Of a DNA stretch of 64,000 nucleotides, positions 7,657 through 46,018 are shown in pieces; within the stretch, counting starts at the first letter, position 1, and each line of letters opens with the position of its first letter. Both the position numbers and the translations under genes were made by a program. The stretch spans positions 1 through 64,000 of the forward strand of contig NZ_CBVI010000134.1 in the NCBI RefSeq assembly GCF_000513195.1. Reading direction: 5' to 3'. A model generated the notes under the pieces. That model saw nothing but the letters and a program-made list of their open reading frames with translations. It searched no databases and was not told the DNA's origin. The stretch is from Bacteroides timonensis (lineage in GTDB: Bacteria; Bacteroidota; Bacteroidia; Bacteroidales; Bacteroidaceae).

Positions 7657-7695
7657 CGAGACTAGTTCATTTCTGTAGGGTTATGAGCTAAATTG

Positions 7696-7824
7696 ATACG
7701 CGGACGACGCGGACAAGGCGGACAAACGCGGATGAAAAGTTACTTACACACCGAAGGGAACCAACGGTCAGCGAAGCTAAATCTTACTCCGCGTTCGTCC
7801 GCTCTATCAGCGTCGTCCGCGTAC
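7696..7824. repeat. GC-rich long hairpin module (CGCGGACGACGCGGAC type)
   Basis: TACGCGGACGACGCGGAC near 7698 is answered by GTCGTCCGCGTA near 7812-7823, giving a long imperfect stem. The loop contains GGGAACCAACGGTCAGCGAAGC, also found (inverted) beside the hairpin next to core copy B near 25965-25991. Confidence 0.6.
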
Positions 7825-7832
7825 CCATTCTC

Positions 7833-8076
7833 AATATAAATAATAAATATTTATAAAACAAAACATTTGCGAGATCAGTCGCATACTTAGGGGGTCTCAG
7901 TATCATACTTAGGGTACCTCAGTATCATATTGAGATACCCTAAGTATCATACTGAGATAGCCTGATTATAACACACTTGATAATCAAGCATTTACAAAAC
8001 TAATCTTTGGTGGTTATAAATTAGAACAAATAAACTATTGAAATAATAAATTAATTCGTTTCTTTCCGGATATGAG
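7833..8076 (+). repeat. 244-bp intergenic core repeat, copy A
   Basis: Begins AATATAAATAATAAATATTT and ends TTCGTTTCTTTCCGGATATGA-like. The centre (7882-7969) is four consecutive 22-bp units, all opening CATA and closing TAT; units 1-2 (CATACTTAGGG...CTCAGTAT) are roughly the reverse complement of units 3-4 (CATA.TGAGATA..C...TAT). Copies B and C have the same length and order. No ORF, no transposase, no spacers. Confidence 0.85.
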
Positions 8077-8127
8077 CTATATAGAAGTGCAAAAGAAGCA
8101 TAACTATCTGTGTGACAATGCACTTGA

Positions 8128-8250
8128 TGTTCCACTAAGATCAGTTGTAGTGGAACACGAGTTCAGTCCTAGTGGGAAGTGCCTTCAGTCGTAGTGGGAA
8201 GTACCTTCAGTCCTAATGGGAACTATCCTCAGTCGTAATAGGAAAATAGC
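8128..8250 (+). repeat. 22-bp-period tandem array with leading hairpin
   Basis: Five units start at 8140, 8162, 8184, 8206 and 8229, with consensus TTCAGTCSTAGTGGGAA plus five variable bases; spacing is 22, 22, 22 and 23. A 10-bp perfect stem (TGTTCCACTA 8128-8137 with TAGTGGAACA 8148-8157) overlaps the first unit. One matching unit (TTCAGTCGTAGTGGGAA) also lies at 26502-26519 beside core copy B. Confidence 0.75.
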
Positions 8251-8281
8251 TCGCTATACAGTTTTAAATTCCCCTAACGGG

Positions 8282-25788: not shown

Positions 25789-26003
25789 CAACAATATTGC
25801 ACATCAAAAAACGTTTTGTGCAGAAAGATACATTACAGGCAAAAATTAATTGAAAAACAAACTGTTTCTAATGAAACTTATTAAAGAAAAGAAGATATGG
25901 ATAATGCATAACCGGAAAGTAATGAATTAAATGATAATTTAGGGGCGTAGCGCCCCGGCAAAGTTTAGCTTCGCTGACCGTTGGTTCCCTGCGGCGTATA
26001 AGC

Positions 26004-26112
26004 AATTTTTCAGACGCGGATAACGCGGATGACGCGGATTCTTTTTTTCATTCGAAATGATAGCGCAGCTTTTAAAATCCGCGTCATCCGCGTTATCCGC
26101 GTCTGAAAAATT
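26004..26112. repeat. 37-bp perfect inverted repeat (GACGCGGATAACGCGGATGA type)
   Basis: Arms 26004-26040 and 26076-26112 are exact reverse complements and carry three GCGGAT words each; the loop is 35 bases. Related in sequence to the hairpin module at 7696-7824. It sits next to the GGGTTATGA end of core copy B. Confidence 0.85.
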
Positions 26113-26140
26113 AAAAACACACCGATAAATTCCCATTTAA

Positions 26141-26384
26141 CTCATAACCCGACAGAAACGAATTAATTCATTATTTCAATAGTTTATTTGTTCTAATTTA
26201 TAACCACCAAAGATTAGTTTTGTAAATACTTGATTATCAAGCGTGTTATAATCAGGCTATCTCAGTATCATACTTAGGGTACCTCAATATGATACTGAGG
26301 TACCCTAAGTATCATACTGAGACCCCCTAAGTATGCGACTGATCTCGCAAATGTTTTGTTTTATAAATATTTATTATTTATATT
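26141..26384 (-). repeat. 244-bp intergenic core repeat, copy B (inverted)
   Basis: Read on the minus strand it has the same start, four 22-bp units and CGTTTCTGTCGGGTTATGAG end as copies A and C. Beyond its left end (26385-26426, plus strand) a further segment with GATAATCCGATATGATAA is shared with copy C only. Confidence 0.85.
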
Positions 26385-26689
26385 AGAGGTGCTTATCATA
26401 TCGGATTATCGTTTTGTTCATAACCGGAAAGAAAAGAAGGAAATTCAGACATGAAGAAGTACGTAAGTTGCTGACTGTATGAATAATTGGTGTTCCACCT
26501 TGTTCAGTCGTAGTGGGAATATACCCGACTTCCAGACCAATCCTGTAACCTCCCCATATCCGGTCCGTATCTTCTCCGTACCAAGTCCGTAGCAAATTCG
26601 GTTCTATAGGATACGGAGTCGCCTATGAACCTTATCAGCCATCCGTGTGTTATATAACATACAATAAATTCTAAAAACTTCAATAAACT

Positions 26690-40472: not shown

Positions 40473-40506
40473 CGAAAGGGAAAACAGGATGAAAAAGAAT
40501 GTCTAC

Positions 40507-40980
40507 CTAATAGTCTTCGATAGTGGAATTTCCGAATATATCCTTTTTGATAATCTGCCTGTGCCCTTTACTGTCTTCAATAATGGTATTGCCGAAGATA
40601 TCTTTTTTGATTGTTTTCTTATTGCCATTATTATCCTCAATAATAGTATTGCCAAAAATATCTTCTTTGATCGTTTTTCTATAACCATTATTATCCTCGA
40701 TAATAGTATTGCCAAAGATATCTTTTTTAATCGTTTTCTTATGGCCGTTATTGTCTTCGATAATAGTATTTCCCAAAATATCTTTTTTAATCGTAATCTT
40801 ATTACCATTATCATCTTCAATAATCGTATTATCCCAAATGTCTTTTTTGACTGTTTTCTTTCCCTGATTGACTATCGAATATTCGTAACTATCCTCGATA
40901 GAATTAACACTATAGCTCTTCATTATATGGGGAGCTAAAACAAACTGAACTGTAAATAGGATAAATAGAATCTTTTTCAT
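40507..40980 (-). CDS. Exported 20-residue tandem-repeat protein
   Basis: 157 residues with a signal peptide (MKKILFILFTVQFVLAPHI). From about residue 46 it is six tandem copies of a 20-residue unit with consensus DIFGNTIIEDNNGxKKTIKK, the last truncated (DIFGNSTIEDY). The unit alternates beta strands and Asn-Gly turns, fitting a beta-solenoid or YD/RHS-like strip. The 60-bp DNA repeat also leaves long ORFs open in other frames; the signal peptide and the promoter box at 41004 identify this frame. Convergent with the helicase gene. Function unknown. Confidence 0.75.
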   Translation of the reverse strand: MKKILFILFTVQFVLAPHIMKSYSVNSIEDSYEYSIVNQGKKTVKKDIWDNTIIEDDNGNKITIKKDILGNTIIEDNNGHKKTIKKDIFGNTIIEDNNGYRKTIKEDIFGNTIIEDNNGNKKTIKKDIFGNTIIEDSKGHRQIIKKDIFGNSTIEDY

Positions 40981-44208: not shown

Positions 44209-45516
44209 ATGAATATAAAGAAAATAGCGCAATACATTGATCAGGAGAAGCTTTTCACACGAGAAGACAAAATACTGATAACATTGAGCGGTGGAGCGGA
44301 CTCAGTAGCTTTGTTGCGTCTACTTCTTGATATGGGGTACACTTGTGAGGCGGCACATTGCAATTTCCATCTGCGGGGCGATGAGTCGGTTCGAGATGAA
44401 ATGTTTGTCCGCGAACTATGCTTACAATTGAAAGTTCCATTACACATTCAACATTTCCAAACCACGGAAGAAGCGGAAAAGCGCCACATATCCATTGAAA
44501 TGGCAGCACGGGAATTACGTTATGCCTGGTTTGAGCAGCTCCGTCTACAACAAGGGGCCGACGTCATCGCCGTGGCCCATCATAAAGATGATAGTGTAGA
44601 AACTCTCCTGCTCAACCTTATTCGTGGAACAGGCATCAACGGATTATTGGGTATCCGCCCCAAAAACGGAAACATTGTTCGCCCCTTGTTATGCCTCGAC
44701 CGGAAAGAAATAACCGAATACCTACAAAAAATCGGACAATCTTACGTAACGGACAGCACCAACCTGCAAGACGAATATACACGCAACAAGATACGCCTCA
44801 ACCTTTTGCCCCTTATGCAGGAGATCAATCCCTCTGTAAAAGAAAGCCTTCTCCGCACCGCAGAACATCTGAATGATGCAGCTCTCTTATATAAGAAAGG
44901 TATAGAAGAAGGTAAGCAGAAAGTGCAAACCGAACAAGGTATCCTAATCAGTGCTTTGTTCCAAGAACCTGCACCGGAAACTTTATTATTTGAGATCTTA
45001 TCTCCATTAGGATTCAACGGTGCACAGATCAAAGATATTTTCACCTCCCTGAATGGGCAACCGGGAAAGATATTCCTTAGCGGAGAATGGCGCGTGATTA
45101 AAGATCGGGAGCTTCTACTGTTAGAACCGGTCTGTTCAGAAGATGTTTCAACAGTCTTTTCTCCAGATGATCCTGCCCTGCCCTTTCGTCTGACAATGGA
45201 AGAACTAAAAATCACGGATGATTTCGTCATTCCACGCGACCGAAACACTGCCTGCTTTGATGCGGACAAACTAAAACAACCTCTCACTGTCAGACGTTGC
45301 CGACAAGGCGACACATTCGTTCCTTTTGGTATGACCGGACGAAAAAAGGTCAGTGATTACCTTACTGATCGAAAATTCTCCCTTTCCCGCAAAGAGCAAC
45401 AATGGGTGCTTTGCAGTGGTTCCCACATCATTTGGTTGATAGGCGAACGTACTGATAATCGTTTCAGAATAGACGCCCAAACACGGAAAGTTGTTATTCT
45501 GAAGTTTATTCCTTGA
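44209..45516 (+). CDS. tilS: tRNA(Ile)-lysidine synthase
   Basis: 435 residues. PP-loop [17 protein letters not shown] (22-38), [17 protein letters not shown] and [11 protein letters not shown] in the N-terminal ATP pyrophosphatase domain; the C-terminal TilS domain ([31 protein letters not shown]) is present. It modifies C34 of the AUA-reading tRNA-Ile to lysidine, an essential step. Confidence 0.95.
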
Positions 45517-45535
45517 TTGTAGGGTTATGAATTCA

Positions 45536-45629
45536 TTCACCACAGAGTAACACAGAGTTTCACAGAGTTTAATCAATTTGAAATCAAAAGAATAGAACTC
45601 CGTGAAACTCTGTGTTACTCTGTGGTGAA
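45536..45629. repeat. CACCACAGAGTAACACAGAG hairpin module, left
   Basis: Arms 45536-45567 and 45598-45629 (32 bases, one mismatch), loop of 30 bases with AAATCAAAAGAAT. Similar CACAGAG hairpins are widespread in bacterial genomes. Confidence 0.85.
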
Positions 45630-45686
45630 AAACTCATTACCGGACGGTTATGAACAAAACGATAATCCGATATGATAAACGCCTTC

Positions 45687-45930
45687 AATATGAATAATAA
45701 ATATTTATAAAACAAAACATTTGCGAGATCAGTCGCATACTTAGGGGGGTCTCAGTATGATACTTAGGGTATCTCAGTATCATATTGAGGTACCCTAAGT
45801 ATGATACTGAGATACCCTGATTATAACATACCTGATAATCAAGCATTTATAAATCCCTTTTTTAGTGATTATAAATTAGGACAAACAAACTATTAAAACA
45901 ATGAATTAATTCGTTTCTGTCGGGCTATGA
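45687..45930 (+). repeat. 244-bp intergenic core repeat, copy C
   Basis: Same start, central 22-bp units (the first has one extra G) and CGTTTCTGTCGGGCTATGA end as copies A and B. Flanked on both sides by CACAGAG hairpins rather than the GCGGA hairpins seen at A and B. Confidence 0.85.
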
Positions 45931-45936
45931 ATTCAT

Positions 45937-46018
45937 TCACCACAGAGTAACACAGAGCGACACAGAGTTTAATTAATTTAAAATCAAAAGAATTAAACCC
46001 TGTGTTACTCTGTGGTGA
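45937..46018. repeat. CACCACAGAGTAACACAGAG hairpin module, right
   Basis: Arms 45937-45955 and 46000-46018 are perfect (19 bp). The loop shares the AAATCAAAAGAAT word with the left module. It ends 7 bases before the stop codon of the convergent ferredoxin gene. Confidence 0.8.

Follow-up and report, generated by a model that had tools for sequence, protein, structure and literature searches.

The window analyzed here, a stretch of 64,000 nucleotides, carries one noncoding intergenic sequence three times, which raises the question of what kind of element it is, how it spreads and what its repeated core does. A first-pass annotation had offered three possibilities: a non-autonomous element, a protein-binding array or a structured RNA. 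The three copies, referred to as A, B and C, were found where that annotation had placed them (7833–8076, 26141–26384 in inverted orientation, and 45687–45930). Copies A and B are 96% complementary over 250 nt, and identity to copy C is 91% for B and 90% for A. The common length of 244 bp claimed for all three applies to A and B, whereas the matching span in C is 245 bp owing to the reported single-G insertion, which is present inside unit 1. As a measure of the element itself, 244 bp is too short: B and C share 40-odd further base pairs leftward that are missing from copy A, and alignment of the copies places the true block at 272–273 bp in B and C. The homologous block defined by alignment of 11 genome copies, GGTTATGAAC...ATTCGTTTCT, is organized as a leader, repeats and a tail. 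No ORF of at least 100 aa lies inside the window copies, in agreement with the annotation, and neither the element nor its unit pattern was matched in plasmid and phage collections or in viral contigs.

Each of the three copies contains four consecutive 22-bp units, with units 3 and 4 roughly the inverse of units 1 and 2, as the annotation had described, and every unit of the window copies is itself near-palindromic. Period-22 lag identity is at least 62% at all three places, a threshold that any other period between 10 and 40 reaches no more than once across the window. Neighboring unit starts are separated by exactly 22 bp in all 94 detected pairs from 53 loci, a count that leaves out six loci repeating others on the opposite strand, as well as the 23-bp step of copy C, whose first unit was missed by unit detection. 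Fifty-nine of these pairs have the same orientation and 35 the opposite one, although orientation rests on few bases in such near-palindromes and an “inversion” may equal few substitutions. Since some loci in named records duplicate loci elsewhere in the set, the pairs were recounted without identical or contained arrays; 76 of 76 neighbors at 40 loci are 22 bp apart, 29 of them in opposite orientation. The third unit is direct in the homologues of one related genome (G066) and in one homologue of another (G097), and inverted in a second G097 homologue. A search pattern of two units was present in 19 of 149 genomes of the genus, our own included, and in 1 of 119 genomes of an order-wide sample (117 from other genera), this one being our own; the reversed control gave 0 in both. 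Among named genomes, a near-identical two-unit pattern occurs in 28 stretches, all from Bacteroides except one from Prevotella.

The genome that contains the window (G000; 7,017,222 bases in 211 contigs) is close to Bacteroides cellulosilyticus. Rather than being confined to three copies with no 22-bp spacing elsewhere, the element is present 12 times in the 7.02 Mb, 11 times as a single alignment and once divided between two, and the spacing recurs, so the expectation of many copies per genome was right in kind. Nine copies, C included, match copy C at 90% identity or more, and two others at 73% and 77%. This ∼90% family was not found in the 65 other genomes searched (60 relatives and five close ones); in the first sample, matches occurred in 3 of 60 relatives and, with no more than 12 candidates scored per genome, none was near 90% beyond short pieces. 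The closer relatives were picked from 99 genomes of the genus by a 3-kb search. At the four sites of contig C134, those flanking pieces that exceed 400 bp are 92–98% identical in G066, 86–99% in G097 and 89–99% in G081, apart from a single piece at 80%, which is a second G081 match at site A. In contrast, the longest alignments of the element in G097 and G066 are 72–77% identical, and the sister genome G081, whose flanking genes are 89–99% identical, gave no match to it; thus, the ∼90% family is seen in our own genome only. The copy at C1:315k has the same flanks in G097 and is older. At site B, G066 holds a diverged element (74%) between genes 92–94% identical, for which a shared position or a replacement is also possible.

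The window copies each lie in a chain of noncoding modules (Table 1), and between modules sits a dyad junction, J, with the form TTCRTTWCT-NNNS-GGTTATGA. Searched as TTCRTTWCT-N4-GGTTATGA with at most one mismatch, J was found at 50 sites in our own genome, 14 in G081, 24 in G097, 15 in G066, 9 in G067 and 22 in G071, and at none in G035 and G031. The reversed pattern yielded 0 sites in every genome except G035 (one); with 50 sites in G000 against 0 for its reverse, J is not a product of chance. The wider consensus of 88 distinct sites, whose core is fixed by the search pattern and whose outer bases are free, is an imperfect dyad, AWTTRATTCRTTWCT-NNNS-GGTTATGARYTAAWT, with half-sites forming imperfect inverted repeats (AWTTRATTCRT and AWTTARYTCAT). 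The ends that the element shares with other noncoding modules are the two halves of J. At least 9 of the 50 sites in our own genome are close to a contig end (less than 700 bp away), so the count of 12 copies may be low. The left J of the copy at L010 is degenerate and that at C1:315k is indistinct. Patterns with other spacing between the arms were dropped, being little above their controls (12 versus 8.1 expected; 19 versus 13 reversed).

Table 1. Element copies, units, junctions and neighboring modules in the window.
Feature	Position	Strand	Basis
J, left end of site A, TTCATTTCT-GTAG-GGTTATGA	7666..7686	+	J pattern
Hairpin module, GCGGACGACGCGGA arms, fused to copy A	7687..7830	+	inverted-repeat analysis
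Copy A, lacking first ∼40 bp, left side fused to hairpin module	7831..8063	+	alignment; same fusion point at C1:281116 (L012)
Copy A units, starts 7883, 7905, 7927, 7949	7883..7969	+	repeat and lag-identity analysis
J, right end of copy A, TTCGTTTCT-TTCC-GGATATGA	8055..8075	+	J pattern
Second period-22 array, unit TTCAGTCGTAGTGGGAAGTACC, next module at site A	8122..8272	+	lag identity
J at site B, TTCATTACT-TTCC-GGTTATGC	25906..25926	-	J pattern
Hairpin module, GACGCGGATAACGCGG arms, site B	25927..26141	-	inverted-repeat analysis
J, right end of copy B, TTCGTTTCT-GTCG-GGTTATGA	26142..26162	-	J pattern
Copy B, full length, 272 bp	26154..26425	-	alignment of genome copies
Copy B, four 22-bp units	26248..26334	-	repeat and lag-identity analysis
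J, left end of copy B, TTCTTTTCT-TTCC-GGTTATGA	26418..26438	-	J pattern
Degenerate J at site C, TTCCTTGAT-TGTAG-GGTTATGA	45509..45530	+	junction reading
CACCACAGAG hairpin module, left of copy C	45531..45632	+	inverted and direct repeats
J, left end of copy C, CTCATTACC-GGAC-GGTTATGA	45633..45653	+	junction reading
Copy C, full length, 273 bp, extra G in unit 1	45646..45918	+	alignment of genome copies
Copy C, four units; unit 1–unit 2 spacing 23 (extra G)	45737..45824	+	repeat analysis; unit detection caught units 2–4 only
J, right end of copy C, TTCGTTTCT-GTCG-GGCTATGA	45910..45930	+	J pattern
Second CACCACAGAG hairpin module, right of copy C	45931..46014	+	direct and inverted repeats

Even where chromosomal flanks are shared, the modules next to them differ among close relatives. 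At site A, our own genome has a hairpin and a truncated element, G097 has a GTTACGAGCTACAGGC hairpin, and G066 reads N. At site L008, our own genome has the element, G097 and G081 have the CACCACAGAG (CACAGAG) hairpin, and G066 has a GACGCGG hairpin followed, past a run of N, by a diverged element; the J centers at this site (GTCG, GTAG, ATAC and TTTTC) are all different in the four genomes behind a nearly constant left flank. Site L012 likewise has three centers (GAGC, ATCG and GCACG) in three genomes. The unrelated sites A and L012 carry the same composite, a hairpin plus 5′-truncated element fused at one base and ending in J, and this shared fusion base points to the J-to-J segment as what moves or is copied. 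No J module was found at site B in G081 and G097, nor at L004 and L010 in relatives. The closest approach to an empty site is L007 in G066, which lacks the element, but 11 bp are replaced there and the site is not simply split; no clean, base-exact example was found. In G081 and G097 the same site has a hairpin without clear J sites. The TTCAGTCGTAGTGGGAAGTACC array beside copy A has counterparts in G066 and G097.

The reading that we favor, and to which we give about an even chance, is that the element is a non-autonomous mobile intergenic cassette of ∼272 bp in which J-to-J movement would be combined with a core of phased double-stranded DNA sites. The moving unit would be the segment from one J to the next, exchanged by site-specific recombination acting in trans. 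Such recombination would be tyrosine-recombinase-like, with inverted arms flanking a short variable crossover region, and would leave variable 4-nt centers and no target duplication. Inverted arms around a variable region are present in the J consensus, with centers that vary behind orthologous flanks, and PF00589 matches number 26–36 per genome; no recombinase or integrase gene linked to J was found. The core sites of Tn916 and CTnDOT likewise have inverted arms around a short variable coupling sequence and produce no target duplication; these elements are far larger than the noncoding modules described here. The first-pass proposal of a non-autonomous element is supported by the 12 copies, a ∼90% family found in none of the 65 other genomes searched, the other modules at the same sites and the recurring composite, from which we infer movement. 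If correct, this reading would describe an unrecognised intergenic cassette-exchange system in these Bacteroides, and it would provide a handle on how these species rewire their intergenic regions, whose modules differ even between close relatives.

Movement could also have been of the transposon type, the element being a MITE moved by a DDE-type IS transposase, with the J half-sites as its ends and the 4-nt center as a decayed target duplication. The element is short (272 bp), noncoding, intergenic and present in 12 copies, the J halves could serve as imperfect inverted repeats, copy C38 has TTCC on either side, and BrickBuilt, a MITE of the same order, has IS5-like ends according to the available text of its description (PMC4596501). 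We nevertheless consider this origin unlikely: the left and right 4-mers agree in one of nine copies, below the 1.9 expected, and no target-site duplication is evident (4-mers were read by hand, with two 5-nt centers trimmed to 4 and three copies omitted because one side was missing or unclear). Moreover, no transposase gene with J ends was found among the loci examined. The segments between paired J sites at these loci repeatedly contain rpn genes, and otherwise ordinary genes (L312, L314) or an IS110 gene; the sole IS110 gene between two J sites sits inside a hairpin module, having been inserted within the CACAGAG hairpin of G097 (L184:16468-18130), and IS110 was rejected as the mobiliser.

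Several known repeat systems resemble the element in part. BOX elements of pneumococcus have fixed left and right parts and central units variable in number, with a unit length that differs from that of the element, and REP/BIME sequences are short intergenic palindromic modules arranged in mosaics, many per genome. The REP/BIME system works with RAYT, whereas our own genome has no linked RAYT gene carrying the element's repeat, and the REP tags GTAG and CGTC given in the available text of PMC3733652 do not head the element. A RAYT transposase was set aside as a candidate mobiliser, the single PF01797 match of the genome (C165:15465) being flanked by other repeats.

The closest known system is the BrickBuilt MITE of Porphyromonas gingivalis, a species that belongs to the same order of bacteria as Bacteroides. 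In the available text of its description (PMC4596501), BrickBuilt has 19 intergenic, noncoding copies predicted to form long stem-loops, and, like the present element, it places tandem near-identical short units, variable in number, between a leader and a tail. Its unit is 23 nt, compared to 22 here (94 of 94 pairs, with one step of 23 in copy C), and its ends are GAGACCTTTGCA, resembling the IS5 family, compared to GGTTATGA and TTCGTTTCT here; no junction motif or module exchange appears in the same available text, in contrast to J (PMC4596501). Nucleotide searches with BrickBuilt at default settings are reported there to have matched no species but P. gingivalis; homologues in P. gulae are described as well (PMC4596501). 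That text also mentions 22-, 23- and 41-nt tandem repeats in P. gingivalis W83, with exact locations not identified, which makes W83 a member of the order that likewise has 22-nt tandem units (PMC4596501).

The core consists of near-palindromic units that hold a 22-bp register whatever the unit direction, and two interpretations of this arrangement were compared. In the favored cassette, the core would act as double-stranded DNA: a dimeric DNA-binding protein would occupy each dyad, and with dyads two turns apart, neighboring dimers would lie along a single face of the helix and could touch. In the other interpretation, transcription of the inverted units would produce a long hairpin that serves as a terminator, processing site or sRNA. 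The RNA of copy A does fold well (z = −7.5, with none of 200 shuffles folding as well), as does the core of copy C (z = −8.7). However, 0 of the 38 hairpin pairs have changed on both sides across 11 copies, and 500 of 500 shuffles are at least as covarying, a weak test given that 23 of these 38 are invariant. At other loci, seven cores selected for their mainly direct units fold with z values of −3.4 to −0.3, and Rfam 15 at gathering score recognized two tRNAs alone in the window and no family matching the element. With the 22-bp register kept, no compensatory change in the long hairpin, and weakly folding homologues with direct units, the comparison favors putative phased DNA sites over RNA; the structured RNA of the first-pass annotation is disfavored, and we judge it very improbable. 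The proposed protein-binding array gains indirect support from a register that persists through changes of orientation and across species, and its units are best described as candidate sites.

We then asked how common such arrays are, by scoring lag identity of at least 62% over 66 nt at periods 8–60 in 1.59 Mb comprising eight stretches from our own genome and five relatives of the genus. This sample is non-random, in that it includes the window, orthologous stretches chosen for the finding, and our own contig C1, known to hold copies. Period 22 was represented by 48 intergenic arrays, partly dependent in that orthologous stretches are included and two matches overlap; 17 of them come from 400 kb of sequence of our own genome. 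Every other period, multiples of 22 aside, gave three arrays or fewer. In the seven stretches classified for both, period-22 arrays numbered 0 in coding and 31 in intergenic DNA. The 48 arrays form 25 sequence clusters when joined at a similarity of 0.68, the chance maximum being 0.56 in 300 comparisons. Dyad symmetry exceeds that of column shuffles in 21 of 34 arrays (p of 0.03 or less) and fails to do so in 13 of 34, so not all units are palindromes. A 50-kb stretch of E. coli, too small for a control, contained no period-22 array. The three intergenic arrays of period 21 all come from G111, the first 200 kb of which hold these three and one array of period 22; period 21 is possibly a lineage-specific period in that genome.

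These data also bear on whether the core is a neutral minisatellite within an old repeat, a functionless array that grows and shrinks by slippage. Unit number does vary, from one to four detectable units at related loci, and the copy at L010 lacks about two units in the alignment of copies. Slippage, however, leaves unexplained both the recurrence of period 22 in 25 unlike clusters, when other periods reach at most three arrays (multiples aside), and the register between oppositely oriented units, and we regard a minisatellite as quite unlikely. We know of no process that gives unrelated sequences one exact period, and no published description of exact 22-bp spacing across unlike repeat families was found in the literature. 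We infer that a common binding geometry, two helical turns in length, lies behind the shared period. A broader proposal, which we advance tentatively and rate somewhat short of an even chance, is that Bacteroides genomes contain a large class of intergenic arrays (at least 100 per big genome, by extrapolation) made up of dozens of unrelated families in which a motif, dyad-like or a half-site, recurs at 22-bp steps. A single architectural DNA-binding scaffold whose paralogues differ in specificity, or a single array-building enzyme, would set the spacing, and in the B. cellulosilyticus group some arrays would be J-bounded cassettes swapped at fixed sites. A class of this size would imply a binding protein or array-making enzyme yet to be named, and it would pose a testable question, namely what reads a motif every 22 bp across sequence families.

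The rpn genes that recur between J sites suggest a candidate mobiliser for the cassettes. Rpn proteins (PD-(D/E)XK, Pfam PF12784) might mobilise the modules or co-travel with them, rpn genes then being gene-bearing members of the J-bounded cassette family. The comparison drew on loci available for 30 of the 36 rpn and 30 of the 89 integrase matches; from either set of 30, three loci shorter than 3,300 bases were discarded. J-like sites (score of at least 22 of 32) within 600 bp on both sides were present at 5 of 27 rpn loci, which are partly orthologous among the three genomes tested, as opposed to 1 of 235 ORFs of 200–450 aa (p = 4.5e-5) and 0 of 27 integrase loci (p = 0.051, marginal). A period-22 array is present at 13 of 27 rpn loci, and 23 of 213 ORFs have one within 1.5 kb; one rpn gene of our own genome (L349/L295, G000:C52:16514-17716) sits between two J and adjoins a module whose period-22 array is likewise flanked by J on both sides. 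The association weakens against integrases: stricter J scores retain 4 and 3 of 27 rpn loci (p = 0.11 and 0.24), J at score 22 on at least one side is found at 9 versus 5 of 27 loci (p = 0.35), and the array association is not significant (13 of 27 versus 7 of 27, p = 0.16). A J score of 22 also arises in shuffled sequence (2, versus 9 in the window). Transposase activity of Rpn is called “highly unlikely” by the authors in the available text of PMC10327210, according to which rpn genes are gained and lost singly, with variable ends and no identifiable terminal repeats or target duplications. A role for Rpn is improbable in our estimation, and because the integrase control weakens the association, the proteins are kept as a lead only. 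PADLOC gave no match for five proteins. In stretches taken as orthologous to the surroundings of the window, the rpn genes at L333 (G097) and L331 (G081) stand beside period-22 arrays with differing units.

Two further repeats were seen in the window. A direct repeat with a 60-bp period runs for five steps at 40514–40873, inside the ORF at 40489–40938. A run of period 11 (GNTACGGANNN), equal to one helical turn, was seen by eye at about 26540–26600, and a scan detected a similar array in G097 at about C1 position 169038.
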